Assembly: GCA_005808475.1 (NCBI GenBank)
Contig: SYLY01000250.1
Location: 1-64,000 of the forward strand
Length of the DNA: 64,000 nt
Reading direction: 5' to 3'
From: Acidobacteriota bacterium
GTDB lineage: Bacteria > Acidobacteriota > Terriglobia > Bryobacterales > Bryobacteraceae
The translations under genes and the position numbers were made by a program. The notes beneath the pieces are model-generated. The model had not been told where the DNA came from, did no database searches, and saw only the letters and a list, made by a program, of their open reading frames with translations. Shown here in pieces: positions 5,019 to 54,000 of the stretch (positions are counted from its first letter, which is position 1; each line of letters opens with the position of its first letter).

Positions 5019-5020
5019 GC

Positions 5021-38936: not shown

Positions 38937-40145
38937 TTACCGGCGCCGCCACCAGACATTGATGCCGGCGGCGATGATGATGAGCGGAATCGCGAGCAAA
39001 TAGAACCCGAAGGTCCAGATTTGCCGCTGCGACATGGTGAGCCTTCTGTCTTCCGGTTCCTTGGGACGGATGGAAATCAGATCCTCGTCCGCCGAGAGCC
39101 AGTTCAGCATGTTGAGAGCCAGATCGCGATTGCCGCCGAACCGTAGGGCGTTGTTGGCGACGAAGTTCGACGTGCCCACGACGACGAAGCGGCCCTGTTC
39201 CTTTTCCTTGCCGGTGGGGATGGTTCCGGCCGCGGCCAGGGTGAACGGACCCTTCTTCTCGTTACCCGCGATGCGGATCTCGGCGGCGCTCAGGTTGTTG
39301 GTGGAAACGCTTCCGGCCGAGGTATTCAGCAGCTTTTCCGCCGTGCCCTTGGCCGGCGATTTGACTTCCAGCGAGCGGACCTCGGGGAAAGCGGTGGCGG
39401 TCTCCTTCATGTCGCGCACGATGGCGTGCGATTCGTAGCTGGCCACCAGCGGCGTCACCGGCCCCAGTCCGAACATCTGAGCCACGCCGGAAAGTTCGAG
39501 CACCAGATCGTTGTTCAGCGTCACGCCCCAGCCGGCCAGCACCTTGCTCAGCGCCGCGTTTTCGTCGGTCTCGTAGCGGGCCATCTTGAGCGGCGGATCC
39601 AGCAGGAACAGCGCGTGGCCGCCGCCTTCGACATACGCCTTCAGCGCATCGACGGCCGGTTGCACGTAGTCGCGGCGGGGACCGCCCACAATGACGATCG
39701 TGCAGTCCTTGGGGACCTCGGCCTTTTCGAGCAGCGAGATCTTCATCGTCTTGTAGTTGTTACGTTCGACGATTTCCTTGAACCCGGACATTCCGTTACG
39801 GCCGGAATCCTCCATGTCGTGCTCGCCGGAGCCGCCGGTCCAGCAGACGTTGCGGGCTCCACCCTTCATCGCTCGGATGAGCGCGCCGGTGATCTCTTCC
39901 TCGCTGATCGACCGGGCTTCCTCGCGCTTGCCGTTCGCCTCGATGTACGTCGCGTTATACGAGCGCACACCCATCGACTTGGCCTTTCCCGGATGCCTGT
40001 CGGGGTCGACGTACTCCACGGCGAGTTTGGCCGAGAGGTTGTCGTACCGGTCCAGCAGGTCGCGCGCGTTCCCGCGGGGATCGGTGAGCCGGCTGGTCTG
40101 ATCGAAGTGCGTGATCTTGACGTCGGAGGCCAGCCCGGAGACCAC
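38937..40145 (-). CDS. GldG-family ABC transporter auxiliary protein, main part after a premature stop
   Basis: These 402 residues match the periplasmic and C-terminal parts of GldG-like (ABC_transp_aux) proteins: LLDRYDNLSAKLAVEYVDPD, NATYIEANGKREEARSISEEEITGALIRAMKGG, CTIVIVGGPRRDYVQPAVDALKAYVEGGG, and a terminal membrane helix (TFGFYLLAIPLIIIAAGINVWWRRR). The frame is open back to a TAG at 40146-40148; in front of that stop the same frame continues as the missing N-terminal membrane part. GTG 40145 could allow re-initiation, but the product would lack the first membrane helix. So it is either a genuine nonsense mutation, a re-initiated split gene, or a base error in the source sequence. 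Confidence 0.8.
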   Translation of the reverse strand: MVSGLASDVKITHFDQTSRLTDPRGNARDLLDRYDNLSAKLAVEYVDPDRHPGKAKSMGVRSYNATYIEANGKREEARSISEEEITGALIRAMKGGARNVCWTGGSGEHDMEDSGRNGMSGFKEIVERNNYKTMKISLLEKAEVPKDCTIVIVGGPRRDYVQPAVDALKAYVEGGGHALFLLDPPLKMARYETDENAALSKVLAGWGVTLNNDLVLELSGVAQMFGLGPVTPLVASYESHAIVRDMKETATAFPEVRSLEVKSPAKGTAEKLLNTSAGSVSTNNLSAAEIRIAGNEKKGPFTLAAAGTIPTGKEKEQGRFVVVGTSNFVANNALRFGGNRDLALNMLNWLSADEDLISIRPKEPEDRRLTMSQRQIWTFGFYLLAIPLIIIAAGINVWWRRR

Positions 40146-40316
40146 CTACACCGTCTGGTCGGACAGGCTGAAGCGTTTGTTGGCCGTCAAGTCCCAGGAC
40201 TTGTTGTGGCGCTGCGCCAGGAAGTTGGCCGCGCCGAGCACGCCGAGCACGATGGCGCCGTAAACGACGGCGTAGCCGAGGAACTGGGTTTGTTTCGCTT
40301 TGAGGAATCCGCTCAT
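40146..40316 (-). pseudogene. GldG N-terminal fragment ending at an in-frame TAG
   Basis: From ATG 40316 the frame encodes 56 residues: SGFLKAKQTQFLGYAVVYG, one membrane helix (about 12-33), then NKSWDLTANKRFSLSDQTV, a hallmark GldG segment that should run straight into the VVSGL of the downstream part. Codon 57 is TAG, where homologues have Lys or a similar residue, so a single base change (for example AAG to TAG) explains the break. The start is two bases from the stop of the permease gene, as expected for the first codon of the intact gene. Confidence 0.8.
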
Positions 40317-40317
40317 C

Positions 40318-41085
40318 TTACGACCTCCACCGCAGCGATTCCATCGATCGCGAAGTCAGGAACAATCCGAAGAAGATCACCGACAAGTAGAAGATCAGGT
40401 CCTTGGTGTCGAGCACGCCCTTGGAGAATCCTTCGAAGTGCTGCACCACCGACAGGTAGGAAATGACCTTGCCGCCGGTGGAAGTGGCGAACGCGGTCAC
40501 CCAGTCGAGCACCCAGAGGAGCAGGCAGATGGCGAAGGTCGCCACGCCGGCCACAATCTGATTCCTGGTGCAGGTGGAGATGAACGTTCCGATCGCCAAC
40601 AGGCTGCCGCCTTGCAGCAGCAGGCCGAGGTATCCGATGAGCATCGGCTTCCAGTCGGGCTTGCCCCACGCGAACAGCGCCACCAGGCCGATCAGCGAAA
40701 CTCCGAGAACGGCGCCGTACATCAGCACCGATGCCAGCCACTTGCCGAGAATCACTTGCAGGTCCGTGACCGGCGACGTGGTGAGCAACTCGATGGTGCC
40801 CGACCGTTTCTCTTCGGCGAACAAACGCATGGTGATCATCGGGATCATGAACAGGCCGATGACGGAAACGTTCATCAACACCGGCCGGATCACCCATTCG
40901 TTCAGATCCATCGGCATGCCGCGTCCCATCATCTGCGACTCCATGCCGCGCTGGACGAAGATCGCGGTGGCCATGAACGAGAAGTAGCCGGCGATCACGG
41001 CGAAAAACACCATCAGCCCGTAGGCGATGGGAGAGGCGAAGTATCCCTTCAGTTCTTTTCTACAAATCACCCAGATGCTGCTCAT
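40318..41085 (-). CDS. ABC-2 type permease of a Gld-type exporter
   Basis: This 255-residue inner-membrane protein has six hydrophobic helices and the ABC-2 permease features IWVICRKELKGYFASPIAYGLMV at the start, RLFAEEKRSGTIELLTTSPVTDLQVILGKWLAS in the coupling region, and SYLSVVQHFEGFSKGVLDTKDLIFYLS near the end, which is distinctive for GldF-like permeases. It overlaps the ATP-binding protein gene by four bases and is followed by the GldG-like gene with one base between. Together they form the core of an ABC exporter whose cargo is not known outside gliding Bacteroidetes. Confidence 0.9.
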   Translation of the reverse strand: MSSIWVICRKELKGYFASPIAYGLMVFFAVIAGYFSFMATAIFVQRGMESQMMGRGMPMDLNEWVIRPVLMNVSVIGLFMIPMITMRLFAEEKRSGTIELLTTSPVTDLQVILGKWLASVLMYGAVLGVSLIGLVALFAWGKPDWKPMLIGYLGLLLQGGSLLAIGTFISTCTRNQIVAGVATFAICLLLWVLDWVTAFATSTGGKVISYLSVVQHFEGFSKGVLDTKDLIFYLSVIFFGLFLTSRSMESLRWRS

Positions 41086-42038
41086 TGCGCTCCTCCCGCG
41101 GCTTGAGACGATGTCAGCTCGATGAACACTTCCTCGAGCGAGAAGGCGGCCGAATGCAACTCGTGGAGCTGCCAGCCGGATTCCACCACCGCCCGGGCCA
41201 GATCGGGCCGGATCTGCCGGCCCTGCAAGCTTTCCACTTCGAACTTCAACATGCCGCCGCGGCCCTCCTTGGCGACCACGCGGCTCACGCCGGAGACCAG
41301 TTCCAGCTTCCGCTGCACATCGTCCGCGCCGGGCGCGCCGGTCAGTTCCACCGTGACCGCTTCCGATCCACGCAGGCGGTGGGTCAGGTTGTCGACCGTG
41401 TCGGTGGCGACCACCTTGCCCTTGTTGATGATGATGACCCGCTCGCACACCGCCTCCACTTCGGGCAGGATGTGCGTGGAAAGGATGATGGTGTGATCGC
41501 CCGCGAGCGACTTGATCAGGTCGCGCGTCTCGATGATCTGCTTGGGATCCAGGCCCGAAGTCGGCTCGTCCAGGATGAGCACGTCGGGGTTGTGAATGAT
41601 CGCCTGAGCCAGTCCGACGCGCTGCCGGTAGCCCTTGGAGAGCTTGCCGATCAGCTTCGTCTTGACGTCGGCGATCGAGCACCGCTCGGCCACTTCGTCG
41701 AGACGCTGCTTCAGGTTCGATTTGGGCACGCCCTTCAGACGGCCGACGAACTCGAGATACTCGCAGACCTCCATGTCCGGGTAGAGCGGCGGGGTCTCGG
41801 GGAGATACCCGATCCGGCGCTTCACTTCCATCGGCTGGGTAGTGACGTCGTATCCGGCTACTTCGGCTCGCCCTTCGGTGGCGGGCAGGAAGCATGTGAG
41901 AACGCGCATGGTGGTCGTCTTGCCGGCGCCGTTGGGTCCCAGGAAGCCGACGATCTGGCCCTTGGCGACCTCGAAGGACACGTTGTCCACGGCCGCCATG
42001 CGCGCGTAGCGCTTGGTTAAGCCTTCCACTTTGATCAT
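41082..42038 (-). CDS. ABC transporter ATP-binding protein, GldA-like
   Basis: The 318-residue ATPase has an intact Walker A (GFLGPNGAGKTTT, about residues 32-44), signature motif (LSKGYRQRVGLAQAI), Walker B (VLILDEPTSGLDPKQI) and the H-loop histidine (ILSTHILPEVEAVC). A C-terminal domain of about 95 residues (RGSEAVTVELTGAPGADDVQRKL onward) is typical of ABC-2 exporter ATPases. ATG 42038 is the best start; an open frame to 42113 adds residues without family resemblance. It is the first gene of the operon 42038-36235, preceded by a near-consensus promoter about 90 bases upstream. Confidence 0.92.
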   Translation of the reverse strand: MIKVEGLTKRYARMAAVDNVSFEVAKGQIVGFLGPNGAGKTTTMRVLTCFLPATEGRAEVAGYDVTTQPMEVKRRIGYLPETPPLYPDMEVCEYLEFVGRLKGVPKSNLKQRLDEVAERCSIADVKTKLIGKLSKGYRQRVGLAQAIIHNPDVLILDEPTSGLDPKQIIETRDLIKSLAGDHTIILSTHILPEVEAVCERVIIINKGKVVATDTVDNLTHRLRGSEAVTVELTGAPGADDVQRKLELVSGVSRVVAKEGRGGMLKFEVESLQGRQIRPDLARAVVESGWQLHELHSAAFSLEEVFIELTSSQAAGGAQ

Positions 42039-42128
42039 TTTTTTGCTCGATTTGAGGTTGTTGGAACTCCGCTCGAGGAAAGCGGAAACGCAAGCGTACG
42101 GCGGACGCCGCACGCCGGCGCAATCATT

Positions 42129-42203: not shown

Positions 42204-43688
42204 TCACTTCCGCAGCCAGACCTCGACGCGCCGGTTCTTCTCCCGGCCCTCCTCGGTGTCGTTCGGCGCCACCGGCAGTGACGCTCCAAAGCCGGTGATT
42301 ACGGCCGGTTGGATGCCGCGCCGCCTCAACTCGTCGGCCACGGCGGCCGCGCGATCCTTCGACAACACCAGGTTCGCCGCCGGGTTGCCGGAGGAATCGG
42401 CGAACCCGATCAGGACGATGTGACGGCCCGCGTACTTGGGGTCCTTCAGGATCTCCACGATGCGGCCCAGGTCGTCGAGCGCCTTCGAGTCGAGTTCGCG
42501 GCTGGCGTAGCGGAATCGCAGATCGATGGTGATGCGTTCGGAACTGGACGCGAGCCCGGTGTACTCGGGCGGGGGAGGCGGATTCACAGGCAGCACCGGG
42601 GGCGGCACCACTTCGGGCGTCTGGCCCACGAAACGGAGTTCCTCGAGCTTCTTCTGCGCGGGCTTGGACCGGGCGAACTCGTCGAACTCGCGGGCCTGCG
42701 GCGACGCGTTCGCGGGGATGTAGAAGTAGAGGCGCCGGGTCCATGGATCGGCCTCCGTCTCCTGCCGCAGGGACGTCGCGGCCGCCATCGGGATCGCCTT
42801 CGACTTCGACACGAAGGCGCGGCTGAGGAAGGCGATTCCGCCAGGGTCCGCCGCGACGGCCGCGTCCAGAGCTTCGCTCGAGGCAGCCGACACGGCATCG
42901 GCCGCAATCGCGCCGCCCTTCAGCAGCCGCGTCGCGGCGAAATCGCGCGTCGCCGATCCCGGCGCTCGCGAGTGCACTCGAGCGGCAGGTCCGCCGGGCC
43001 ATTGTCTGGTCTCGCCGGACAGCAGCTTGGCCGCGTCCGCCTCGGAGAGCGTAGCCGCGCCGTTCGAAGGATGCACCGCCGCGACCACGACGTCGAGCGC
43101 GACGACCTTCTCCGACGCGTTGGAAGCGAGATCGCCGAGAGCTTTCAAGCTGTCCACTTCCGCCGCGCGGATCTTGCGCGAGGACATGGCGATATCGGCT
43201 TGGCCTGCCCCGAGCGCCGCGAATCCGCTATCGCTGCCGTTGCCCTGGATCTCGAACGCAACCGCGCCGCCGGAGATGCGCGTTTCGTTCGGACCTGGTC
43301 CCGCCGTTCGTTGTGGCGACCCGCCCTTGGACCGTATGAACTCCTCCGCGAGCGTAGCGGCCGCGAGCGCGACGGTGTTCGAACCCTTCAGGCGCACCAC
43401 CGGCGACGCATCCGGCTTGGGGCCGTCCTGCTTCCGTTCCGGCTCGGGCGGCTTCCCGTCCGGCCGCGTCGCCCACCATCCGCCGATCGCCACCGCAAGC
43501 AGCAGCGTGACCCCGAGCAGCGCCTTCACCCAGCCGGGCGTGCCCGCCGCGGGGGGATTCGCCGGGAACAGCCGTTTTTCGCACTCGGGACAAAGCGGCT
43601 CTTCGCCAGGCGCGATCTCGACGATCTCTTTCTTGTCCGCTTTCGTGCATCCCCCGAAGTTGGTGCACTTGAATTTGAGGTTGGCCAT
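42204..43688 (-). CDS. Four-cysteine ribbon, membrane anchor, PstS-like domain and OmpA-like peptidoglycan-binding domain
   Basis: This 494-residue protein is a four-part fusion. Residues 1-40 are a ribbon-type metal site (C8, C14, C33, C36; KCTNFGGCTKAD, then CPEC) facing the cytoplasm. Residues ~52-71 are one membrane helix (WVKALLGVTLLLAVAIGGWW). Residues ~95-330 resemble a phosphate-binding PstS-like solute-binding fold (VVRLKGSNTVALAAATLAEEFI, ALGAGQADIAMSSRKI, DPGGIAFLSRAF). Residues ~385-494 are an OmpA C-terminal domain (LDDLGRIVEILKD, HIVLIGFADSSGNPAANLVLSKDRA, EGREKNRRVEVWLRK) that should bind peptidoglycan. AGGAGG precedes ATG 43688. It is the last gene of the tubulin-like operon and would link a cytoplasmic ribbon to the cell wall. 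Confidence 0.88.
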   Translation of the reverse strand: MANLKFKCTNFGGCTKADKKEIVEIAPGEEPLCPECEKRLFPANPPAAGTPGWVKALLGVTLLLAVAIGGWWATRPDGKPPEPERKQDGPKPDASPVVRLKGSNTVALAAATLAEEFIRSKGGSPQRTAGPGPNETRISGGAVAFEIQGNGSDSGFAALGAGQADIAMSSRKIRAAEVDSLKALGDLASNASEKVVALDVVVAAVHPSNGAATLSEADAAKLLSGETRQWPGGPAARVHSRAPGSATRDFAATRLLKGGAIAADAVSAASSEALDAAVAADPGGIAFLSRAFVSKSKAIPMAAATSLRQETEADPWTRRLYFYIPANASPQAREFDEFARSKPAQKKLEELRFVGQTPEVVPPPVLPVNPPPPPEYTGLASSSERITIDLRFRYASRELDSKALDDLGRIVEILKDPKYAGRHIVLIGFADSSGNPAANLVLSKDRAAAVADELRRRGIQPAVITGFGASLPVAPNDTEEGREKNRRVEVWLRK

Positions 43689-43704
43689 CCGGCCTCCTGT
43701 GAAA

Positions 43705-44640
43705 TTAGAAGAAGCCCTTCCTGGGCGCGTACCCTTCGGTCAGCCGGTCGCCCGCGCAGAGCAGAGTCATCGCTTGCACGACGATGGGACCGCCCGGTAG
43801 CTTCTGGCCGAATCCGCTCACTGGACTGTAGCGGCCTAGCCCATAAGAGATTCCCGTGGCGCCGCCGTTCTCGCAGAACGTCTCCGGCTGCAGGTCGTCG
43901 TAGCCGGTGTTTTGGAATGGAATCTGCCGGGCGCGCGAGTCGGTGAGGGGCGCCCAGGTGCGATACTGCAGCCGCGAGCCGAACTGGCTGGTGGTGCGCG
44001 CGTTGTTGACGCCGGTTCTGGCGGCGTAATCGCGGTCGAACACCATGAAGCCCTTGGGTCCGCGCCCGTCGATGTCGAGCGCCAACGTGGCGGCCGAGCG
44101 AATCATCGCGCACTCGAAGCGCACGTCTTTCAGATAGAGTCCGTTGCCGCTGGTGAACGCGCGAAATCCCGAGATCATGTGCTGGCCGGGGCACCCCATC
44201 GTGAGTTGATGTTGGCCGCCGCCGGGAGTTCCCGCCGAAGCGGTGGCGGGCGCGCCCTGCCAGAAATAGCGCCGTCCGCGAGCGTCCCACCTCACGGTGG
44301 AGCAGTGGATCTGCATGTGATCCACCACGCCGCCGACGCGAATCGTCACTCCCACCATCGCTTCTCCGGCGCGGCACCGCAGGACGCCGACGGTTCGCTG
44401 GCCCGGGACGGCTGCCATCGTGTAGCGCCCATCGACGACTCCGCCCACCTGCTGCGAGCCGAGTTCGAGGAAGTACTTCTCGCCGATGATGTAGTCCTTG
44501 TTGTACGGGTCGACCTCGTTGCCGGTCTTGGCGGACCGGTTGGGCCAGAACTGCCCCACCGCCGCCGCCGGCAACAAGATCGCGACCGCGAGACTACTTC
44601 GGCGCCACCACCGTTTCGATGAATTGGGATGCCTGAACAT
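43705..44640 (-). CDS. Secreted protein of unknown function in the tubulin-like operon
   Basis: I do not recognise this 311-residue protein. It has a twin-Trp, basic n-region and a hydrophobic core (KRWWRRSSLAVAILLPAAAVGQF, about residues 9-31), so it is exported. The mature part has cysteine/glycine-rich repeats with similar spacing (VGVLRCRAGEAMVGVTIRVGG, MQIHCSTVRWDARG, LTMGCPGQHMISGFRAFTSG, VRFECAMI), suggesting two copies of a disulphide-linked beta module, perhaps carbohydrate binding. The start at 44640 lies 47 bases inside the end of the tubulin-like gene; no later ATG would preserve the signal peptide, so the long overlap is real and implies coupling. Confidence 0.75.
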   Translation of the reverse strand: MFRHPNSSKRWWRRSSLAVAILLPAAAVGQFWPNRSAKTGNEVDPYNKDYIIGEKYFLELGSQQVGGVVDGRYTMAAVPGQRTVGVLRCRAGEAMVGVTIRVGGVVDHMQIHCSTVRWDARGRRYFWQGAPATASAGTPGGGQHQLTMGCPGQHMISGFRAFTSGNGLYLKDVRFECAMIRSAATLALDIDGRGPKGFMVFDRDYAARTGVNNARTTSQFGSRLQYRTWAPLTDSRARQIPFQNTGYDDLQPETFCENGGATGISYGLGRYSPVSGFGQKLPGGPIVVQAMTLLCAGDRLTEGYAPRKGFF

Positions 44641-47599
44641 AGGCCTTGTACGTCTTATCTAGAGGATTCTTCTTTTCCGCGCGGACGGCCGCGACCTGAG
44701 CTTCCACCTTCTTCATGAGCTCCTCGCGCTTGGCGCGGTGCAGGTAGTCGGTTTGCAACAGCGGCATCACGGTGGACTGGATGGAATCCTGGCTCGCCAG
44801 GCTGGCGTCCGAGATGGCTTCTTCCATGGTTTTGCCGAGATTCACCGGCTCGAGTTCCTTGCCGTTCTTGTCGCGCGGCATCAGATACAGGCTGGTGACG
44901 CCGGTATCCGGATCCTCGAGGGCCGCCACCACCTCCATCGCCTGTGCCAGCATCAGATAGCCGCGGAGCTTGGTGGGATTGACATCCTCGATGAACAGGT
45001 CGGGCAGGTTCGATCCGTCGCCTTCGGCGTGCAGTTCCATCTTCGCTTGCGCCCCATCCGCGCCGTTGACGCGCTGCATGTACTTTTCGCGCAGGAACGA
45101 GGCGTCGGTGACGAAGCGGCCCGGGAACAGGTTGGTGATATTGACCAGCGTGATCTCGTTCGGACGGCCGGTGGTGGGAACGATTTCCTTCTCGCCGGTG
45201 GCGGCGTTTTCGAGTTCGTGTTTCAATTGCTCGCGGAACTCGCCGAGTTCCTTGGCTTCCGGCAGCAGGATGGACAGATACGAAGTGAATCCGCCGCCGG
45301 TGGTTCCGGGGCCCTGGCGGCGCACTTCCGCGTCGTTGAAGCAGATGTAGTTCTTGGCGCGTGAAACCACGTTGATCACGTAGCCGCGCAGGCTATCGGG
45401 GTTGCCGCCGTACTCGCGTTGCAGGCGCTCGATCACGTTGACGCCCAGTATCCGCTGGCGGTCGGGGTTGCCGGCCACCAGATTGTTGTGCGCCTCCACG
45501 GCGGAACGCTCGCAGCATTCTTCCAGCACGGAGATGAACTTCGGGCGGTTGACGCGCGAATTGAACGTGGCGAAGTTCTGCGTGTCTCCCAGCAGCTTGG
45601 CCACTTCGTTGCGGACGGTGGCAGTCTGCTTCTGCTGCTCGCCACGATCGCGAACCAGCGCTTTGGCGAAGTCCTTCACCTTCTCGGGTTCGTAGAAGCG
45701 GATCACCTGCTTCTGCAGATCCGCCGCGCCGGTATCGGCGCAACGCGCCGCCATCTGATCGTTGAACGCCTTCAGCGATTCGGCGATCATGCTGTTGGCC
45801 CGTCCGATCTCGGCCGACAACGCGCTCAATTCGGCGATCAAGGCCTGCATCAGGCGCTTCTGGAAATCCAGACCCTCGATGCGGGTGCGAATGATGTAGA
45901 GCTGGGTGAGCACCTCGCCCTGCGCGTCGAAGATGTTGTCGTCCTTGCCGACCATGCGCGACAGGACGCCCAGCTTGGACCACTCCCGCTTGTTGGCCGT
46001 GACCTTGGCGGCGACGGAAGCTTCGTTCTCCTTGGCCTTGGACGCCTTGTCGTCGATCGCGGCCAAGCGCTCCTCGAGCGACATCACCAGGGCCGACATC
46101 AGGCGCGACAAGTCGAACATCGACTTCACGCCCGTCGTCCACTCCTGGAACAGGTCCGCCTCGATCCGCGCCCGCAGTTCGCGCACGTGATCCTTTTGCT
46201 CGCCGCGCTTGGTCTCGTAGAATTTTTTGACCCCCAGGTCGCGGTAGTTCTGCGAATAGGCGGTTTCGCAAAGCTTCTCGAGTTCGTCCATCCACGCCGC
46301 GCCGTTCTTGGCGTGGGTCTCGCGGACGTGCGACTTGAAGTTGGGGATCAGATCCATCCAGAACTGCGTGATGGGTTTCCAGCGCTTGTTCTTGATTTCG
46401 TCGGGAAGGAGGCCTTCGGAAAGCTGCAGGCGCTCGTCGGTGATGTGCCAGCGCTCGACGGTCTCCTTCTGGCGGACGTACTCGTTGAAGCTCTGATTGA
46501 CCGGTTCCTCGGTGTAGCCGAAATCGTCCGACCAGCGGTTGAACATCAACTGCAGCGACGCCTGGCGCGCGAACGAGTACGCGATGTACTCCCGGATCTC
46601 CTCTTCCGGATACGCGATCCGCTTGACGCCGAACGCGAAGAACAGACGCGAGCGGACGGGCGTCTTGCTCGACGGCGATTCCTCCGGGCGGAAGTCCATG
46701 TTCTCGAAGGTTTCGAGGCGGCGCAAGGCGTTCCAGGCGACCTTTGCGTTGGTCACGATCTTCTCGTACAGGAACGACGAGACCAGCTCGGGAATCTCCT
46801 TGTCGATATCGATGCGGTTGTGGTCCTGGTTCTCGTCGGTGATCAGGTAGCAGCAGTTGAATGGATCTTGCAGTTCCTGCCGTCCCTGCCTTTGCCCGCT
46901 GACGTCGAACGGCTTGTACGCGCCGGTTCCCAGCGCGTTCAGCTCGAGCAGCGCGCCGTACCCGTTGGCGTGGTAGTTCGCGCCGGCCCAGTTGGGGTTC
47001 GGGGATTTGTCCGGTAGTAGCGCATAAATGAGAATGCGGTACTGCTTGCCGGGATACGTCATGCGGAGCTGCGTCACCACGTCGATCACGCTGCCCGATC
47101 CGGTTCCGCCGGCGAGTCCACAACACACGTGGAAGGTGACCGACGCCGTTGCGCCGACCTCCATCTCCTTCACCAGCGCCTTGGCCTGATCCATGAACTT
47201 GTCGGCCTTGCAGGCGAACAGGAACCGCCCGAGCCGCCGCTTCTGGCCGCCGACGATGTTGGCCGCGTCCGCCGAACTCAGGATATTGCGGAACTGGTCC
47301 TTGCTGCCGAGCCACGGGCTGATGCCAGGATAGCTTCCGACGTTATCCAGCACCTGCCCCAGATTGAGTCCGTCGATCGCCAATTGCGACGTCTTCTTCA
47401 ATTGCACGCTGTGGCCCAGGATCTTCCAGGTGGGATCGTCGTGAGCCATCATTTCCTTGCTGGAGTCGACGTACAGGTAACGGACGCGGGCGCCGCTGGG
47501 ATCCTCCGCGCGAAAGTTCTGGAAAACCAGTTTCCGGAAAGAGCGGATGATTTTTCCGCCGGTTCCCCCTAGGCCGATGACGAGGTGGTTGGTGGGCAT
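44594..47599 (-). CDS. Tubulin/FtsZ-superfamily (Tubulin_2-like) GTPase, central gene of an undescribed operon
   Basis: This 1001-residue protein opens with a tubulin-type nucleotide fold: HLVIGLGGTGGKIIRSF (residues 5-21, first phosphate loop) and the tubulin/FtsZ G-box GLAGGTGSGS (161-170) after VTFHVCC, followed by IDVVTQLRMTYPGK and YALLPDKSPNPNW. Family members of the Tubulin-like (PF13809) or FtsZl type are larger than FtsZ and are predicted to remodel membranes. Beyond about residue 300 it is long and mostly helical, with probable coiled coil around 480-600 (EERLAAIDDKASKAKENEASVAAKV). No membrane segment is present, so it is cytoplasmic. It sits in the middle of a seven-gene operon whose other products are all membrane-anchored or exported. 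GTP binding is predicted from the motifs; polymerisation is not shown. Confidence 0.88.
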   Translation of the reverse strand: MPTNHLVIGLGGTGGKIIRSFRKLVFQNFRAEDPSGARVRYLYVDSSKEMMAHDDPTWKILGHSVQLKKTSQLAIDGLNLGQVLDNVGSYPGISPWLGSKDQFRNILSSADAANIVGGQKRRLGRFLFACKADKFMDQAKALVKEMEVGATASVTFHVCCGLAGGTGSGSVIDVVTQLRMTYPGKQYRILIYALLPDKSPNPNWAGANYHANGYGALLELNALGTGAYKPFDVSGQRQGRQELQDPFNCCYLITDENQDHNRIDIDKEIPELVSSFLYEKIVTNAKVAWNALRRLETFENMDFRPEESPSSKTPVRSRLFFAFGVKRIAYPEEEIREYIAYSFARQASLQLMFNRWSDDFGYTEEPVNQSFNEYVRQKETVERWHITDERLQLSEGLLPDEIKNKRWKPITQFWMDLIPNFKSHVRETHAKNGAAWMDELEKLCETAYSQNYRDLGVKKFYETKRGEQKDHVRELRARIEADLFQEWTTGVKSMFDLSRLMSALVMSLEERLAAIDDKASKAKENEASVAAKVTANKREWSKLGVLSRMVGKDDNIFDAQGEVLTQLYIIRTRIEGLDFQKRLMQALIAELSALSAEIGRANSMIAESLKAFNDQMAARCADTGAADLQKQVIRFYEPEKVKDFAKALVRDRGEQQKQTATVRNEVAKLLGDTQNFATFNSRVNRPKFISVLEECCERSAVEAHNNLVAGNPDRQRILGVNVIERLQREYGGNPDSLRGYVINVVSRAKNYICFNDAEVRRQGPGTTGGGFTSYLSILLPEAKELGEFREQLKHELENAATGEKEIVPTTGRPNEITLVNITNLFPGRFVTDASFLREKYMQRVNGADGAQAKMELHAEGDGSNLPDLFIEDVNPTKLRGYLMLAQAMEVVAALEDPDTGVTSLYLMPRDKNGKELEPVNLGKTMEEAISDASLASQDSIQSTVMPLLQTDYLHRAKREELMKKVEAQVAAVRAEKKNPLDKTYKAYVQASQFIETVVAPK

Positions 47600-47612
47600 G
47601 TGTTCGATGTCC

Positions 47613-48386
47613 TCAGACTTGCTGCTTCAAATCCTTGTAGGCGGCGTAGCCTATCACGGTAAACGGAATCGCCTGGAAAAACAGGAAAAGAAAGATCGCG
47701 GCCGTGCGGGACAAGCCCACCACGCGCTGGGTTTGGGGCTCCAGCGCGCCGCGGATCAACCGCACCGCCAAGTCGATCGCCTGCGTATCCATGTAGGTTC
47801 CACCGGGGTTCCGCTCGAAGTATCTTCTCAAATCCGACTCCACCGCGGATTTCGGCACTTGCGTTTCCGGCCAGATAAGGCGGCTCAGGAAGGAGTGCTT
47901 GCGTTGGAAATCGCGGCACGCCTCGTCGGCGTACGTCTTCGCGTAGAGCGTCCGCGAGGGTTCGTGGCTCAACGGGATCCGCCGTCCCGTGGGGGGAGGC
48001 GGGTAATCCGCGAAGTTCTCGAGGTTCAGCCCCTTCACGGCGTAGTAGGCCTTGGCGAAGGTGCCGCTCTTGAACGCCTGGTCGGCCTGGATCCCGCGCT
48101 GCCAGGAGTTGACGGTGATCGCCGCCAAGTCGCGCGTGTGCCGCAACGCGACATAGGTTAGGGTGAATACGAGCGTCGCCATTGCGGCGACTCCGCAAAG
48201 CACATGGTGGAAGACGGTAATGTGATAGCGGGTGTTCCACAGCCGCGAGTAGTTGGTGCAGACCCACCAGCACACGCCCGCCAGCGTGAAGGCTCCGATC
48301 ACGGTTCCGAGAAACGCGCGTGGCGTTGTCCGGGACAAGATGCCGATACACGTGACGGCCAATTCGATGGCGTCCGAAAAATTCAT
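47613..48386 (-). CDS. Three-helix membrane protein B of the tubulin-like operon
   Basis: I do not recognise a named family in this 257-residue protein. It has two N-terminal membrane helices (about 27-45 FLGTVIGAFTLAGVCWWVC and 60-82 HVLCGVAAMATLVFTLTYVAL), a periplasmic-sized region of ~130 residues (from about 85 to 220), and a C-terminal helix (RTAAIFLFLFFQAIPFTVIGYAAY). Its sequence is clearly paralogous to the neighbouring protein A: both share CTNYxRLWN, HHxLCxVA, LVFTxxYVxxR, AYYAVKxxxLE and FQAIPFxVIGxAAYxDL. The two genes overlap by four bases. The shared architecture suggests a hetero-oligomer in the inner membrane that could be the site the tubulin-like protein acts upon. Confidence 0.8.
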   Translation of the reverse strand: MNFSDAIELAVTCIGILSRTTPRAFLGTVIGAFTLAGVCWWVCTNYSRLWNTRYHITVFHHVLCGVAAMATLVFTLTYVALRHTRDLAAITVNSWQRGIQADQAFKSGTFAKAYYAVKGLNLENFADYPPPPTGRRIPLSHEPSRTLYAKTYADEACRDFQRKHSFLSRLIWPETQVPKSAVESDLRRYFERNPGGTYMDTQAIDLAVRLIRGALEPQTQRVVGLSRTAAIFLFLFFQAIPFTVIGYAAYKDLKQQV

Positions 48387-49141
48387 CGCTGCTCCCGGAG
48401 ATCCTGGTAGGCGGCGAATCCGATTACCGCGAACGGAATCGCCTGGAACAGCAAGAGTAGCAGGATGGCCAGCCGCCGCACATACGTCACGGTCCTGGGC
48501 GACTGCGGCACGAGCAGATCGCGGGTGTGCGTCGCGGCCAGATCCACGGCCCGGGACATGTCGTAGTTCTTGCCCGGATTCGCCTTCGTGAACCGGTCGC
48601 GATCGGCCTGGATCTTGCCGAGCGGCGGATCGGGCAGACTCAGCGCGCGCACCAGGAACGGGTTCTTCTTGCGGAAGTCGTCCAGCAGTTCCGCGACGTA
48701 CGATTTGGAGGCGAGTTCGCGCGTGTCCTGCCGGCTGAGCGGCAGCATCGCACCCGGCTGGCCCGGCAGCGGCGCCTTGGAGAAGTCCTCGAGTCCGGTC
48801 GCCTTTACCGCGTAGTAGCCGCGGGCGAACGCGGCGTCGATCAATTTGCGATCCTTCCGCGCGCCTTCATGCCATTGGGAGATGGCGCGGTTGGTGATCT
48901 CCGCGGTGTTGCGCATGCTCACGTAGACCACCGTGAACACCAGCGTCATCGCCGCCGCGACGGCGCACAGCGCGTGGTGGATCCCACCGATGCGGAACCG
49001 GAGATTCCACAGGCGGTAGTAGTTGGTGCAGATCCACCAGAACGCGCCCGCCACGATGATCGCTCCGGCGATGGTCAGCAGGAAGGTTCGCGGACTGCTC
49101 CGGGCCAGCATGGCCACGCACTCCATGAGGAATCCAATCAC
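48383..49141 (-). CDS. Three-helix membrane protein A of the tubulin-like operon, paralogue of B
   Basis: This 252-residue protein is a duplicate of the adjacent protein B. It has helices at about 20-38 (FLLTIAGAIIVAGAFWWIC) and 54-76 (ALCAVAAAMTLVFTVVYVSM), a ~125-residue soluble region, and a C-terminal helix (RRLAILLLLLFQAIPFAVIGFAAYQDL). The soluble part keeps the pattern YYAVKATGLEDFSKAPLPGQPG, LSRQDTRELASKSYVAELLDDFRKKNPFLVRALSLPDPPLGK, and GKNYDMSRAVDLAATHTRDLL, so it is a real domain and not a linker. The identity between A and B is high enough to see by eye along the whole length, pointing to tandem duplication within the operon. The start follows the ribbon protein gene by ten bases. 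Confidence 0.8.
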   Translation of the reverse strand: MIGFLMECVAMLARSSPRTFLLTIAGAIIVAGAFWWICTNYYRLWNLRFRIGGIHHALCAVAAAMTLVFTVVYVSMRNTAEITNRAISQWHEGARKDRKLIDAAFARGYYAVKATGLEDFSKAPLPGQPGAMLPLSRQDTRELASKSYVAELLDDFRKKNPFLVRALSLPDPPLGKIQADRDRFTKANPGKNYDMSRAVDLAATHTRDLLVPQSPRTVTYVRRLAILLLLLFQAIPFAVIGFAAYQDLREQR

Positions 49142-49151
49142 TCGAGCCTCC

Positions 49152-49961
49152 CTACCGCGCCACGGACCAGTCGATCACGATCCGGCGCTTTCCTTTGCCT
49201 TTTACGCGCAGCACCATGCGGCGGTAGTCCGACGTGGATTGCGGCGTCATGGCGATGCCTGCGTTCTTCAAGTCCTGCAGAGAGAGCACCACCGGAGCGC
49301 CGCCCGGGAGCGCTCCCGAAACAAGCTGTCCTTTATCGACCGAGGTTCCATCGATGGTGACGAGCGCCTCCTTCTCGTCGACCTGGCCCTCCCAAACGAT
49401 GCGGCCAGAGCCAGCTCCGGAAATCGGCTCGGGCGTGGGCGCGGGCCTGGGCTCCGTCGCCGGGACCGGTATGGGCGTGGGGGCCGGTGGAATGACGACC
49501 GGATCGGGATTCGGAACCGGATTCGGCTTCGGACGGGGGATCGGCGCGGGAGACGGGATGGGTTCGGCCGACGGCGATGGCGACGGCGATGGCGATGGGA
49601 CCGGCGCGGGCGTCACGGGATCGGGCGCGGGCGCGGGGATAGGCTCAGTCGGACCGGGGCCAGGGCCCGGCGCCGGTTCGGGAATGGGTACGGGCTCGGG
49701 CGGCGTGACGGGCTCGTCCTGAGGCAGCAGGAAGAACGCTCCGGCGAGCAGCACCGCGATCGCGCCGCCGGCAATTCCCGCCTTCTTCGCGGGAAAGCCG
49801 CCGCGGGAGCCGGAGGAGGCTCCGCCAGCCTTGGCAGAGGTTGCCGTCAGCGCCTTGCCGCATTCCGGACAGGCAAAGTCCGCGCCCGCTTCCATCGCCT
49901 CGCGGGCGTCGGCCTTCGCGCATAGGCCGAAGTTAACGCACTTGCCGAATTTCGCCGCCAT
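49152..49961 (-). CDS. Four-cysteine ribbon, membrane anchor, Pro-rich stalk and small C-terminal beta domain
   Basis: The 269-residue protein has a ribbon at 1-37 (C8, C14, C31, C34; KCVNFGLCAKAD, CPECG), a Gly/Ser-rich hinge, and a membrane helix at about 59-80 (KAGIAGGAIAVLLAGAFFLLP). An extreme proline stalk of ~90 residues follows (PEPVPIPEPAPGPGPGPTEP-type, with a run of Ser-Pro pairs), then a compact C-terminal domain of about 75 residues (GRIVWEGQVDEKEALVTIDG onward, ending RMVLRVKGKGKRRIVIDWSV). The ribbon and helix are nearly identical to those of the next upstream gene, which has a different exterior. The stalk could span the periplasm or cell wall. The Ser-Pro run is encoded by a six-base repeat near 49570-49600. 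Confidence 0.8.
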   Translation of the reverse strand: MAAKFGKCVNFGLCAKADAREAMEAGADFACPECGKALTATSAKAGGASSGSRGGFPAKKAGIAGGAIAVLLAGAFFLLPQDEPVTPPEPVPIPEPAPGPGPGPTEPIPAPAPDPVTPAPVPSPSPSPSPSAEPIPSPAPIPRPKPNPVPNPDPVVIPPAPTPIPVPATEPRPAPTPEPISGAGSGRIVWEGQVDEKEALVTIDGTSVDKGQLVSGALPGGAPVVLSLQDLKNAGIAMTPQSTSDYRRMVLRVKGKGKRRIVIDWSVAR

Positions 49962-49963
49962 GA

Positions 49964-51055
49964 CTATTGCCTGGGATCGGAAAGCGCCAACGTGAACACG
50001 GAGCCCTTGTTCAGCTCGAGCTCCTTGCCGGCCGCGGTGATCGTGTAGGAGGACACGACGCCAGCGGCGGCTCCCGCTCCCGCCCCGATGGCCGCCCCTC
50101 GGGCGCCACCGGCGACGGCGCCGATACCCGCTCCGATGCCAGCGCCGATCGCTCCGAACAAAGCGCGCTTCTTCTTCGACATCGACTGTCCGATCGCCCG
50201 GCCTTCTTCGTCGACATTCACCTGGCCTCGCGAATTCCGGATGCCCTTCAAATCCGCGCTGATCGGAATCGTCTGGCCGCCGGCGGCGATCTCCTCGAAC
50301 GAGAACGCGATCTCCGACTTGCCGCGGCCGACGAGCTTTCCGGGTCCTTTCGCCTTGTTGACACGGGCCCGGACCTGACCGCCGCGGTAGGGGCCGCCTT
50401 CCACCATCAGCAGGAACACATCGCCCTCGCGGGCCGTCCGGGTGCTGAGGTCGGAGAGCAGCCGCGCCTGGATCGTACCGGACACGGCGGGTCCCCCGGA
50501 CGGCCGCGGTTTCGCTCCGCCGCCCTCGCCATCCGGCGGAATGATTCCTGGATCGCCGCCGCGCAGGACGGGAGCTCCACCGCCGCCAGTGACGGGCGGC
50601 CGGCCACCGCCTCCGATGACGGGAGGCTGACCGCCGCCTCCGATGACGGGAGGCTGACCGCCTCCACCGATGATGGGTGGCTCACCGCCTCCGCCGGTAA
50701 TGGGCGGTTGTCCACCACCACCGATTACGGGCGGTTGGCCGCCATCGATGGGACTCACCGCCGCGCCGCCGGCGCCGCCAGGATCCTGGGAGACGGTCGC
50801 ATCCGACGGAAGCAGGAAGTACACGCCGGCGAGCAGCGCCACGATGCCTCCGCCGATCAGGCCGGCTTTCTTCGCGTCCAGCCCTCCGCCACCGCGGCTG
50901 GAGCCGCCTCCTCCGCCTCCTCCTCCCGCAACCGCGGAGAGTGGGCGTCCGCACTCCGGGCACGAAAAATCCGAGCCCTCCACACCGATCGCGTCACGGT
51001 TGTCGGCTTTGCCGCACAGGCCGAAATTACTGCATCTTCCAGTTCTCGCTGCCAT
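49964..51055 (-). CDS. Four-cysteine ribbon, membrane anchor, Gly-rich repeat stalk and glycine-zipper C-terminus
   Basis: This 363-residue protein is the first gene of the tubulin-like operon. The ribbon (C8, C14, C32, C35; RCSNFGLCGKAD, CPECG) is followed by a poly-Gly hinge and a membrane helix at ~60-82 (KKAGLIGGGIVALLAGVYFLLP). Then come six 9-residue repeats of the QPPVIGGGG kind, a beta domain of ~120 residues (SGTIQARLLSDLSTRTAREG, VFLLMVEGGPYRGGQVRARV), a glycine zipper (FGAIGAGIGAGIGAVAGGA and on) that could insert in a membrane, and a closing strand LELNKGSVFTLALSD. ATG 51055 has GGAGGAGGTG upstream; the longer frame to 51121 lacks the conserved MAAR start. It could bridge inner membrane and envelope. 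Confidence 0.8.
   Translation of the reverse strand: MAARTGRCSNFGLCGKADNRDAIGVEGSDFSCPECGRPLSAVAGGGGGGGGSSRGGGGLDAKKAGLIGGGIVALLAGVYFLLPSDATVSQDPGGAGGAAVSPIDGGQPPVIGGGGQPPITGGGGEPPIIGGGGQPPVIGGGGQPPVIGGGGRPPVTGGGGAPVLRGGDPGIIPPDGEGGGAKPRPSGGPAVSGTIQARLLSDLSTRTAREGDVFLLMVEGGPYRGGQVRARVNKAKGPGKLVGRGKSEIAFSFEEIAAGGQTIPISADLKGIRNSRGQVNVDEEGRAIGQSMSKKKRALFGAIGAGIGAGIGAVAGGARGAAIGAGAGAAAGVVSSYTITAAGKELELNKGSVFTLALSDPRQ
50577..50738 (-). repeat. Six tandem 27-bp repeats encoding the Gly/Pro stalk
   Basis: Six consecutive units of 27 bases run from 50577 to 50738, inside the coding sequence. The second and third units (50604-50630 and 50631-50657) differ at one base; the outer units are more diverged. 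Each encodes nine residues of the form QPPVIGGGG. Unit length is a multiple of three, so gain or loss by slippage would change stalk length without breaking the frame. Confidence 0.85.
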
Positions 51056-51171: not shown

Positions 51172-52269
51172 CTATCGCCCTGTCCGTCCCGGAATCCTCC
51201 AGACCGCTTCGAGCAAGCCTCCCCGCAGGGCGCACATCTCGTCGTGCAGACAGACGGTGCTGTCGGTGTATCCGGGCACGAACTCCACGACATCGCCCAC
51301 GCGCAACGAGTCGTCCGGCGATTCCAGCTCGATCGTGCCGTGCTCCGCGGAAAGCACGACACTCCTCACCGGCGCGCCGATCAGCGGCTGGGGCAATCCG
51401 TGCTGCACGCTCATCGTCTTGAATCCGGCATCGACAATAATGCGGGTGGGCGTTGGGCGGCTGGCGACCCGTGTGACGACGGTCAGCGCGAATTCGTGGT
51501 CCGTGAGCCCCCATTTCCGGTAGTTCAGGTCGGAGAACACGCCGCCGCCCGCCTGCACTTCGGTGATCCCGGCGGTGCGCGTCGCGTCGAGGAACGTGCC
51601 GCTTCCCGCCGCGCTCACGATGGCGATTTCAAACCCCTCCGCCCGGCACCGTTCCGCCGTTTCGACGAGCGCGCTCATCGCCGCGGCGATCTTCGCCGAT
51701 TTGTCCTCTCCGGGCTCCTTCACGGCGTGCCCTTCCCAGCCCATCAGGCCCGCCAGCCGGATGCCGGGCGTGACCACCGCCGCGCTCACCAGATCGATGG
51801 CGGATTCGCCGGGCTCGATGCCGCAACGATTCATGCCGACGTTCAACTCGATCAGCACCGGGATCGTGACGCCTTCGGCGCGCGCCGCCTCGCCGAGTTG
51901 CGCCAGGTGCGCGTGACTGTCGGTGGCCGAGATCAGGCCGCACCGGCCGGCCAGCCGCGCCAGACGCCGTTGCTTGCGCGCGCCTACGGTCTCATGAGCG
52001 AGCAGTATCGATTCGACGCCGGCATCGGCCATCGCCTCCGCTTCGTAAAGCGTGGCGCAAGTGACGCCGATCGCGCCGGCCTCGAGCGCCAGTGTGGCCA
52101 ACTGCGGCGCCTTCTGGCCCTTCATGTGGGGACGCCACGCGACGCGGGCCGCGCGGAGGACGGTGGCCATCCGGTCCACGTTGCGCCGGTACGCATCCAG
52201 GTCGAGGCAGAGCGCTGGAGTTTCCAGCTCGTGTTTGGCGAGGCCGATGGCCCCAGAGTTCGCGGACAT
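51172..52269 (-). CDS. D-threonine aldolase / D-serine dehydratase-like PLP enzyme
   Basis: This 365-residue enzyme belongs to the fold-type III PLP family of D-threonine aldolases and alanine racemase-like proteins. The PLP lysine is expected in WRPHMKGQKAPQLA (about residue 51-54), with GVTCATLYEAEAMADAG, VLIELNVGMNRCGI, LAGLMGWEGH, SAAGSGTFLDATRTAGITEVQAGGGVFSD and a C-terminal metal-binding H-x-C-like site near PGYTDSTVCLHDEMCALRGG, which in this family lies near Asp/His/Cys ligands. ATG 52269 is preferred over the TTG at 52275. There is no signal peptide. It probably degrades or makes a D-amino acid; the window also encodes a D-aminoacylase far away, but linkage is not implied. Confidence 0.9.
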   Translation of the reverse strand: MSANSGAIGLAKHELETPALCLDLDAYRRNVDRMATVLRAARVAWRPHMKGQKAPQLATLALEAGAIGVTCATLYEAEAMADAGVESILLAHETVGARKQRRLARLAGRCGLISATDSHAHLAQLGEAARAEGVTIPVLIELNVGMNRCGIEPGESAIDLVSAAVVTPGIRLAGLMGWEGHAVKEPGEDKSAKIAAAMSALVETAERCRAEGFEIAIVSAAGSGTFLDATRTAGITEVQAGGGVFSDLNYRKWGLTDHEFALTVVTRVASRPTPTRIIVDAGFKTMSVQHGLPQPLIGAPVRSVVLSAEHGTIELESPDDSLRVGDVVEFVPGYTDSTVCLHDEMCALRGGLLEAVWRIPGRTGR

Positions 52270-52310
52270 GGTCAATGAGCTAGGCTACAATAATTTGACG
52301 TTGTTCCAAA

Positions 52311-52910
52311 ATGCACACTCGTAGACTTTGCAGTCTGCTGCTCGGCGCGTGGCTCGCGGGCAGTTTGTTCATGGTGTGGGTCGCCACGCACAATCTCGGC
52401 AATGTCGATCCGATGATGGCGAATCCGGGCATGCAGGCGCAACGCCACATTCGCGATATCGGGCCGGACCGGGTGCGAATGCTGATGCGGTTCCAGGCCG
52501 GTGAACTGAATCGCTACTACTTCGAAACCTGGGAGGTGGCCGAGATCATTCTCGGGATCGTGCTCGCGGTCACCTTGCTCTTCGCGACGAACGGCAACCG
52601 GCTGATGATGGCGCTGGCGGGAGGAATGATCGCCATTCCGCTCATTCAGCACTTCACCATCACGCCGCAGATCCTGGAATTGGGGCGGGGATTGGATTTC
52701 GCCACGCCCGATCAGATGCAGGCCGAGCGCCAGTCTTTCTGGGGCTACCACAACTTTTATTCGATGCTCGAGATCGTCAAGATCGCGCTCGGCTTCGGAC
52801 TGGCGGCGCGTCTGCTCATCTCGATGGGCAATTCGACAGGCCGCCGGCGGCGGTCGTCATCCAAGATCGATTCGATCGATGACGCCAATGACGGCCATGT
52901 CAATGGGTGA
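52311..52910 (+). CDS. Four-helix membrane protein of unknown function
   Basis: I do not recognise this 199-residue protein. It has four hydrophobic segments (about 7-25 CSLLLGAWLAGSLFMVWVA, 74-91 VAEIILGIVLAVTLLF, 97-113 LMMALAGGMIAIPLI, and 150-168 EIVKIALGFGLAARLLI) with the arrangement of a small inner-membrane protein, and an Arg/Ser-rich, charged C-terminus (GRRRRSSSKIDSIDD). A histidine/Gln stretch (RDIGPDRVRMLMRFQAGELNRYYFETWE) between helices 1 and 2 could be periplasmic. Its last 54 bases overlap the end of the convergent microcompartment gene, so the overlap is 3' to 3'. Function cannot be inferred from neighbours. Confidence 0.65.
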   Translation: MHTRRLCSLLLGAWLAGSLFMVWVATHNLGNVDPMMANPGMQAQRHIRDIGPDRVRMLMRFQAGELNRYYFETWEVAEIILGIVLAVTLLFATNGNRLMMALAGGMIAIPLIQHFTITPQILELGRGLDFATPDQMQAERQSFWGYHNFYSMLEIVKIALGFGLAARLLISMGNSTGRRRRSSSKIDSIDDANDGHVNG

Positions 52911-53126
52911 TTCGGGACGGCCGACGCTGGTCATGGCGCTGTAGCCTTCGGTGACCAGCAGGACCCGGTCGCCGATGCCCGCGTCCACCGAGTCGAGCGC
53001 CACCACGGCGTCTCCGCGATCGGAGCCATCGAGATTTAGCGGCTGCACGATCAGCGCTTTCCTGCCGTGATGGCTGTCGTGTTTCTGGGTCGCGACCAGG
53101 TCGCCGATCACGCGCGCGATCAGCAT
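52857..53126 (-). CDS. BMC-P shell vertex protein (EutN/CcmL family), third copy
   Basis: This 89-residue protein forms the pentameric vertices of a bacterial microcompartment shell. The family pattern is clear: IARVIGDLVATQKHDSHHGRKALIVQPLN at the start, DAVVALDSVDAGIGDRVLLVTEGYSA in the middle, and the closing DMAVIGVIDRIDL. ATG 53126 lies seven bases inside the end of the preceding BMC-P gene. It is the last gene of the locus on this strand. Confidence 0.93.
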   Translation of the reverse strand: MLIARVIGDLVATQKHDSHHGRKALIVQPLNLDGSDRGDAVVALDSVDAGIGDRVLLVTEGYSAMTSVGRPESPIDMAVIGVIDRIDLG

Positions 53127-53413
53127 GCCCGCTCGTTCGCTTTCGCGCGCTGAGCGTGCACTTCGTCCACGATGCCGACGATGGTTGCGTCGGTGGGAAC
53201 CTCCACCGGGAGGAAGGGAAAACTGGATTCCTTGCCTTTGCACCAATAGACGAGTTCGCCCGCTCCCGCGCCCACGGCGTCGGTGCAGACGAGGGGCTTG
53301 CCGGTTTTCGACAACTCCGGCGTCAGCGGCTGAACCACCAGCAGGCGTTGTCCCTCGAGCGGGCGGTTCTTGACCGTCGCCCAAACGCGGCCCACCACGC
53401 GGCCGAGCGTCAC
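53120..53413 (-). CDS. BMC-P shell vertex protein (EutN/CcmL family), second copy
   Basis: This 97-residue vertex protein starts with GTG at 53413, overlapping the stop of the upstream copy by four bases. The core reads LGRVVGRVWATVKNRPLEGQRLLVVQPL, LVCTDAVGAGAGELVYWCKGKESSF and TDATIVGIVDEVHAQR. It carries a cysteine pair (one in LVCTDA and one in YWCKG) and a hydrophobic SSFPFLP loop not shared with the other two copies, consistent with a specialised vertex subunit. The GTG start is supported by absence of an ATG within the expected N-terminus. Confidence 0.92.
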   Translation of the reverse strand: MTLGRVVGRVWATVKNRPLEGQRLLVVQPLTPELSKTGKPLVCTDAVGAGAGELVYWCKGKESSFPFLPVEVPTDATIVGIVDEVHAQRAKANERAC

Positions 53414-53697
53414 CGCTTGCCTTCGGGCGGATCGTCCAGGCTCACCGTGTCGACGATGCCGATGATGCTGGTGTCGACCGGCGTGTCCTTGCAGCCGTCG
53501 GCCATTCGCGCCGAGCTTCCGGAAACCAGCAACACCAATTCGCGATTGCCCGCGCTGACGGTATCGACCGCAACGAGGTAGTTCCCCTCGTCCTTGCCCT
53601 CCGGACTGACGGGCTTGACGATCAGGAGCTTCTTGCCCTCGAGCCTCGGATCTTTCCGGGTGGCGACCACGGTGCCCACGACGCGGGCGAGAATCAT
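53410..53697 (-). CDS. BMC-P shell vertex protein (EutN/CcmL family), first copy
   Basis: This 95-residue protein has the vertex-protein pattern LARVVGTVVATRKDPRLEGKKLLIVKPV, YLVAVDTVSAGNRELVLLVSGSSARM and TSIIGIVDTVSLDD. It lies nine bases after the BMC-H gene and overlaps the next BMC-P gene. Three different BMC-P genes with a single BMC-H is the pattern known from the planctomycete/verrucomicrobial type of microcompartment and its relatives in acidobacteria, which handle aldehydes from fucose or rhamnose breakdown. Confidence 0.93.
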   Translation of the reverse strand: MILARVVGTVVATRKDPRLEGKKLLIVKPVSPEGKDEGNYLVAVDTVSAGNRELVLLVSGSSARMADGCKDTPVDTSIIGIVDTVSLDDPPEGKR

Positions 53698-53706
53698 GCG
53701 GCCGCT

Positions 53707-54000
53707 CTACTTGTGATTGGACTGCGCCTTGCCGATCGGCAGGACGTCCTCGAGACTCGGGTGGGGGCGCGGGATCACGTGCACCGAAACCAGTTCGCCC
53801 ACGCGGCGGGCGGCGGCGGCTCCGGCGTCGGTGGCGGCCCGGACGGCGGCCACGTCGCCCCGTACCAGCGCGGTCACGTATCCGGATCCGATCTTCTCCC
53901 ACCCCACCACGGTGACCTTGGCGGCCTTCACCATGGCGTCGGCGGCTTCGATCATGGCCACCAGTCCGCGGGTCTCGATCATTCCGAGTGCTTCACCCAT
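53707..54000 (-). CDS. BMC-H hexameric shell protein
   Basis: This 97-residue protein has the BMC domain in its simple, non-permuted form: [66 protein letters not shown], with the [12 protein letters not shown] signature and the helical [19 protein letters not shown] end. Six copies tile to make the facets of the polyhedral shell, and the KIGSGY loop would line the central pore. It is encoded directly after the aldolase gene (32 bases) and before the three vertex proteins. Confidence 0.95.

Follow-up and report, generated by a model that had tools for sequence, protein, structure and literature searches.

A tubulin-like protein of the Tubulin_2 family encoded with zinc ribbon membrane proteins in an acidobacterial operon

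The window analysed here is a stretch of 64,000 nucleotides (contig SYLY01000250.1, assembly GCA_005808475.1) from the 7.9 Mb genome of a soil-type acidobacterium, and it carries an operon of seven open reading frames (g1 to g7), all on the minus strand and spanning positions 51055 to 42204, of which g5 codes for a tubulin-like protein, hereafter TubL. By sequence comparison, TubL is a clear member of the Tubulin_2 (PF13809, FtsZl1) family, whose proteins are widespread in bacteria and archaea. The new element here is, as far as sequences can tell, a distinct TubL clade together with its companion, a rare module composed of a zinc ribbon and one transmembrane (TM) helix on which the periplasmic parts are swapped.

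The tubulin-like protein and its clade

TubL matches the Tubulin_2 profile with an E-value of 2.4e-60 and 205 bits (curated cut-off 27) over profile positions 1-354 of 356, and PF00091 weakly (5.1e-4, residues 116-185). A sequence-only reading of this DNA had proposed a 1001-residue tubulin-like protein with the motif GLAGGTGSGS at residues 161-170; length and motif were both confirmed, and the PF13809 match upholds the membership of the tubulin superfamily at the level of sequence. The motif conforms to the GGGTG(S/T)G-like G-loop signature of the family and is invariant across five aligned clade members, and the nucleotide loops of the clade are conserved (T1-like GLGGTGG, T4 GLAGGTGSGS). 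A comparison of the TubL profile with the PDB gave weak G-loop similarity to tubulin beta alone (residues 137-186, E 0.26), and Pfam found no match to FtsZ_C, the FtsZ C-terminal domain, in TubL. The structural model, built from an alignment of two sequences, has a predicted local distance difference test score (pLDDT) of 36.6, too low for the fold or the GTP pocket to be read, and a helical middle region, which family members have between the N-terminal GTPase domain and the C-terminal domain as a long coiled-coil or helical stretch, is seen in this low-confidence model alone; the low scores of this model and of that of g6 (see below) are probably due to alignments that lacked depth. Since a canonical FtsZ is encoded elsewhere in the same genome, TubL is an additional tubulin-superfamily protein.

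In a tree of 22 N-terminal Tubulin_2 domains, the five TubL proteins with a ribbon gene as neighbour form one branch with support of 100/100, and the nearest relative of this branch is the protein at locus L016 of genome G001, which adjoins a caspase gene. The closest named relative, 64% identical over the full length, is encoded at locus L011 of a metagenome-assembled genome of the Bryobacterales (Acidobacteriota), apparently the same as contig C659 of genome G555. Other full-length relatives are encoded at a second locus of G555 (L052, 50% identity), in a genome of another class of the phylum (G097, locus L031, 45%) and on a Paraburkholderia megaplasmid (L042, 31%), the latter being the sole full-length relative among plasmids; the relative in genome G482 is split between two contigs (L053 and L054). 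Outside the Acidobacteriota, the search covered plasmids and viral contigs, and there was no relative among the viral contigs. Tubulin_2 genes as a whole occur in 7 of 61 relatives. The TubL clade is rarer: within the order it is represented in 4 of 257 genomes, once by no more than a fragment, and full-length clade matches occur in 2 of the 396 genomes sampled from the phylum; a contig scan of genomes with a single TubL sequence as query returned one locus. Genes at the other loci were called by a codon-based caller, and the majority of the genomes are metagenome-assembled. Within the wider family, three Tubulin_2 matches in succession were observed on one contig of another genome (L018, G017 contig C68).

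The zinc ribbon module and its linkage to TubL

A ribbon-TM gene lies at most two genes downstream of TubL in all six readable loci (window, L011, L052, L053, L031 and L042), while the part that follows the TM helix varies: PBP_like_2 and OmpA domains in the window, L011 and L053, SBP_bac_3 and LysM domains in L031, TPR in L042 and a short tail in L052. No ribbon was found at 17 other Tubulin_2 loci taken as controls, which are mostly accompanied by vWA-type genes, as judged by eye from gene maps. In the window's genome, the ribbon profile identified five sites, of which the operon accounts for three; the remaining two correspond to a ribbon-TM-NMT1-OmpA protein (contig C339) and to a 99-residue ribbon-TM protein (contig C192). 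Within the order, ribbons at E<1e-5 were detected in 6 of 257 genomes, and the three genomes in which most of a clade TubL is sequenced are all among these six (hypergeometric 7e-6). Among the 396 genomes of the phylum, ribbons below 1e-8 were detected in only two (the window's own, G000, and G097), which are exactly the two with a clade TubL.

In g1, g2 and g7, a four-Cys N-terminal ribbon is followed by one TM helix, in agreement with the earlier claim of ribbon-bearing proteins. The first two have lysines ahead of the helix and an acidic or proline-rich region behind it, a charge pattern which suggests that the ribbon is in the cytoplasm and the remaining domains are outside. The fusion on contig C339 (L062, 1759-3426), in which the periplasmic binding protein (PBP) domain is of the NMT1 type, adjoins a relA-like gene and is encoded at a distance from TubL.

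Recurrence of the gene set and a deletion relic

By homology, the gene set of the window is found again in another genus of the family, represented by G555. Its contig C869 encodes a ribbon-glycine-zipper protein, a ribbon-proline-stalk protein and the start of a membrane protein gene of the memA/memB type (g3 and g4 in the window), and contig C659 begins within such a gene, followed by TubL, a ribbon-PBP-OmpA gene and two g6-like genes; we infer that the two contigs are adjacent. Counterparts are also present in another class of the phylum (G097) and on the Paraburkholderia megaplasmid (a homologous operon is present in Paraburkholderia sp. PREW-6R), so that the recurrence of the neighbours which the sequence-only reading had proposed to look for was indeed observed. 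The occurrence of the gene set in several genomes and the fact that three of the five genomic ribbon sites fall here argue that the operon is not due to chance.

Furthermore, a deletion relic is present in G001, the genome of a sister species in the same genus as the window (L079, 9713-10257), where g3 to g5 are gone and the flanks differ. In this relic, a ribbon-TM-stalk of the g1/g2 type (52% identity) is fused in frame to residues 239-269 of g6, after which come a frame shift and the end of g6. The unit was once present in the genus and then lost, from which it follows that it is dispensable and probably mobile.

Gene content and surroundings of the operon

The intergenic spacings from g1 to g7 are, in order, +2, +10, -4, +13, -47 and +16 nt, consistent with the seven same-strand genes with overlaps or gaps of at most 16 bases described before. 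The first gene (g1, 49964..51055, minus strand) codes for a protein of 363 residues comprising a zinc ribbon (E 2.0e-22 against the ribbon profile), a TM helix, a Gly/Pro stalk, a beta domain and a glycine zipper, the latter matching Gly-zipper_YMGG of Pfam at 1.5e-6, marginally below the cut-off; this layout is repeated in homologues at L082 (G555) and L081 (genome G524). The second (g2, 49152..49961, minus strand, 269 residues) combines a zinc ribbon (2.5e-21), a TM helix, a proline-rich stalk and an end domain of about 75 residues, and its homologue in L082 is placed after that of g1. They are followed by memA (g3, 48383..49141, minus strand), with 3 or 4 TM helices and a soluble domain of about 140 residues, for which no Pfam family was matched, and by memB (g4, 47613..48386, minus strand), which overlaps memA by 4 nt. 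The two are 44% identical and thus paralogues, as the sequence-only reading had proposed, and their family is also present in L011, L052, L081 and L082. An FtsX match of g4 (1.2e-4) was under threshold and was rejected.

TubL itself (g5, 44594..47599, minus strand, 1001 residues) has the PF13809 domain at residues 6-347, a probably helical middle and a C-terminal part. It is overlapped by 47 nt by g6 (43705..44640, minus strand), which codes for an exported, Cys-containing protein with a signal-peptide-like start and a probably all-beta domain; no Pfam family was matched, and its model, all strand, is of low confidence (pLDDT 37.6, alignment of three sequences). The last gene (g7, 42204..43688, minus strand, 494 residues) encodes a zinc ribbon, a TM helix, a PstS-like periplasmic binding domain (PBP_like_2, 4.6e-20) and an OmpA peptidoglycan-binding domain (2.8e-16). 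Its middle domain matches the PstS family model TIGR02136 at 5.4e-23, below the cut-off of this model. The same architecture is found again in L011, L053 and L080, and g7-type proteins retain the PstS-like motifs and the OmpA D/R peptidoglycan residues. At L080 (genome G471, 750-4147), the ribbon-PBP-OmpA gene is directly upstream of a gene that weakly resembles a tail sheath (phrog_279, 2.6e-5).

Downstream, the operon adjoins a cassette for an ABC-2 exporter with GldG-like and DUF4340 proteins (37559-42113, minus strand), and upstream lies a racemase/dehydratase-like gene (51172-52275). No counterpart of either was found near the other TubL genes of the clade, and both are therefore considered to be outside the unit. 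Apart from the operon, three EutN/CcmL genes and one BMC-domain gene for microcompartment shell proteins, followed by a class II aldolase gene, are encoded at 52857-54806 (minus strand).

A caspase module and the g6 proteins

A sister module is encoded on contig C192 of the window's own genome (L063, 1980-7953) and consists of genes for a ribbon-TM protein, a DUF1318-TPR protein, a protein of 604 residues, a caspase, a DUF4384 protein and an M48-like protein; there is no TubL alongside. In G555, the sister-module series comes after TubL, with identities of 45%, 37% and 45%, the last of which refers to no more than the beginning of the caspase gene, where the contig stops; at the Paraburkholderia locus the order is caspase, DUF4384, TubL and ribbon-TPR. 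The caspases of L063, L042 and L016 have intact His-Cys dyads. As a guess, the two modules of the window's genome might share a single TubL.

At L011, a g6-like protein is fused to a PF15644 domain (papain-fold toxin 1, glutamine deamidase; 2.7e-11). This toxin-fused gene lies in a stretch at 4748-7593, in which the next gene (6397-7593) is a second g6-like fusion, whose C-terminal part has no assigned family. Neither PF15644 nor another toxin domain was found in g6 of the window, and no immunity gene was recognised at L011 or in the window. PADLOC left TubL unmatched and returned OmpA/MotB-like and caspase matches only, g7 resembling ZorB through its OmpA domain alone.

Proposed function and alternative explanations

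The reading that we favour, at a little short of an even chance, is that the operon products form a trans-envelope assembly, in which GTP-binding TubL would act as the organising scaffold that docks the ribbon-bearing inner-membrane proteins and couples them to ligand sensing and to peptidoglycan. The ribbon would stay in the cytoplasm and serve as a docking handle for TubL, while the TM helix would carry exchangeable periplasmic modules, including PBP domains of several families for small ligands; the OmpA or LysM domain would hold peptidoglycan as a cell-wall anchor. memA and memB could form an inner-membrane platform, the glycine-zipper protein g1 and the proline-stalk protein g2 could reach through the periplasm, and the exported g6 would be a client. 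Binding of an external ligand may then alter the clustering or release of the ribbon membrane proteins by TubL, in its GTP-bound and perhaps polymerised state, and the result could be, as a guess, control over the deployment of an exported effector or over a stress response, with the caspase/DUF4384/TPR set as output module in the sister operons. It is conceivable, with slightly less confidence, that the ribbon is a dedicated docking tag by which TubL recruits ribbon proteins encoded in or outside the operon, linking GTP-dependent assembly to periplasmic sensors, anchors and the caspase module.

Several observations weigh against this trans-envelope assembly. The putative contact between ribbon and TubL is deduced from gene neighbourhood, and the structural models of TubL and g6 are of low confidence. 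The topology of memA and memB is ambiguous, and the mem genes are missing at the G482, G097 and Paraburkholderia loci and are therefore not core. Comparison of the TubL profile with FtsZ from the same genomes gave only a spurious match of 25 columns, and the T6-H7 region and the T7 catalytic loop of TubL could not be located. G524 (ribbon-glycine-zipper and mem gene) and G471 (ribbon-PBP-OmpA) are without any Tubulin_2 gene; a ribbon can thus occur where TubL is absent. Moreover, the statistics are based on few loci, mostly from metagenome-assembled genomes. As for the envelope-spanning machine driven or positioned by a tubulin-like filament that the sequence-only reading had suggested, the span from cytoplasm to peptidoglycan is supported by domain order and charge pattern, and the filament, a GTPase activity and the drive are conjectural.

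Other functions were considered for the same genes. The intact caspase dyads, the glutamine deamidase domain on the g6-like protein of L011 and the patchy distribution with losses would fit a contact or conflict system, in which proteins of the g6 type with variable C-terminal toxins are displayed or exported and the caspase operons represent a suicide arm; this is nevertheless unlikely, as g6 of the window carries no toxin domain, no immunity gene was recognised and the PADLOC matches are limited to those mentioned above. Membrane remodelling, in which TubL would polymerise on the inner membrane and bend or pinch it while OmpA and membrane proteins serve as anchors, was proposed in 2010 for the same family with overlapping partners (OmpA, TM proteins) (PMC2875224), and filaments are usual among relatives of FtsZ and tubulin. 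We regard it as improbable here: no gene of the set is known to bend membranes and ligand-binding domains recur instead, the elements required for FtsZ-type filaments were not identified in TubL, and a reviewer objected in 2010 that an FtsZ-like protein of the cytoplasm would be unable to work with partners in the periplasm and the outer membrane (PMC2875224). There is a similarly small chance that the operon is an accessory to ligand sensing or transport, without toxin or remodelling, in which phosphate or related solutes would be detected by the PBP proteins, with TubL doing no more than position these proteins. Three PBP families on ribbon proteins and the retained PstS-like motifs speak for it, and PBPs near FtsZl1 were already pointed out by the 2010 reviewer (PMC2875224); the FtsZl1 gene of Polaromonas naphthalenivorans is one with a PBP neighbour. 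However, no ATP-binding cassette (ABC) or tripartite ATP-independent periplasmic (TRAP) permease accompanies the operon, and the window's downstream ABC genes are not shared by the surroundings of other clade TubL genes. A patch of unrelated envelope genes, for which the patchy distribution and the varying flanks could be cited, is very improbable indeed and is largely refuted by recurrence, given the tight spacing, the gene order repeated in another genus, the linkage within the clade and the joint deletion relic.

Under the trans-envelope assembly, there could be a physical link between the cell wall and a tubulin-like protein inside the cell. One protein type of the clade, combining a putatively cytoplasmic ribbon, a TM helix and ligand-binding and cell-wall-binding domains, would answer the reviewer's objection of 2010 (PMC2875224). 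Should the ribbon be a docking tag, sequence alone would suffice to find proteins that a bacterial tubulin-like protein has as clients.

Comparison with known systems

FtsZl1, i.e. the PF13809 family, was described in 2010 by Makarova and Koonin, who noted its association with vWA, OmpA-domain and membrane proteins and suggested a role in membrane remodelling (PMC2875224). Since operons with such neighbours were published then, this kind of system is not new, and the earlier statement that no characterised system of this composition is known holds as regards experiments but not as regards description, since operons in which FtsZl1 is accompanied by OmpA and membrane proteins were already on record (PMC2875224). 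No paper assigning a mechanism to the FtsZl1/Tubulin_2 family was found in the open-access literature. The window operon resembles the FtsZl1 operons of 2010 in the family, in the N-terminal FtsZ-like domain with a long extra region and in the OmpA and membrane protein neighbours (PMC2875224), the OmpA-domain protein being g7, as in FtsZl1/vWA systems. It differs from them in the lack of a vWA, kinase or P-loop GTPase gene, Pfam finding no vWA domain in the seven operon proteins, unlike in typical Tubulin_2 loci, and in the addition of ribbon-TM proteins with PBP and OmpA or LysM domains, memA/memB, g6, the caspase sister module and a distinct clade. The main text of the 2010 paper was found to make no mention of ribbon-TM-PBP-peptidoglycan-binding proteins, of a paralogous membrane pair or of a caspase module (PMC2875224).

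In Synechocystis, the Tubulin_2 gene sll0445 is required for normal phototaxis and Sll0445 co-purifies with pilus proteins (PMC9880817). The Sll0445-Sll0447 set is similar to the present operon at the family level, a Tubulin_2 protein being encoded with envelope- or division-type partners, but these partners are FtsA-like and DivIC-like (PMC9880817). Compared with bacterial FtsZ, TubL shares the tubulin superfamily and the T4-loop signature but has 1001 residues and no match to the FtsZ C-terminal domain, in a genome with its own FtsZ. With PstS, g7 shares the middle domain with PstS-like motifs (TIGR02136), but it is predicted to be membrane-tethered, is fused to a ribbon and an OmpA domain and has no pstCAB nearby, PstCAB permease genes being absent from the clade loci. 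Finally, g7 is comparable to the MotB, ZorB and Pal anchors, in which a membrane anchor is followed by an OmpA-type domain with conserved D and R residues; no MotA/ZorA-type partner was recognised, and g7 is distinguished from these anchors by a zinc ribbon ahead of the TM helix and a binding-protein domain ahead of OmpA.

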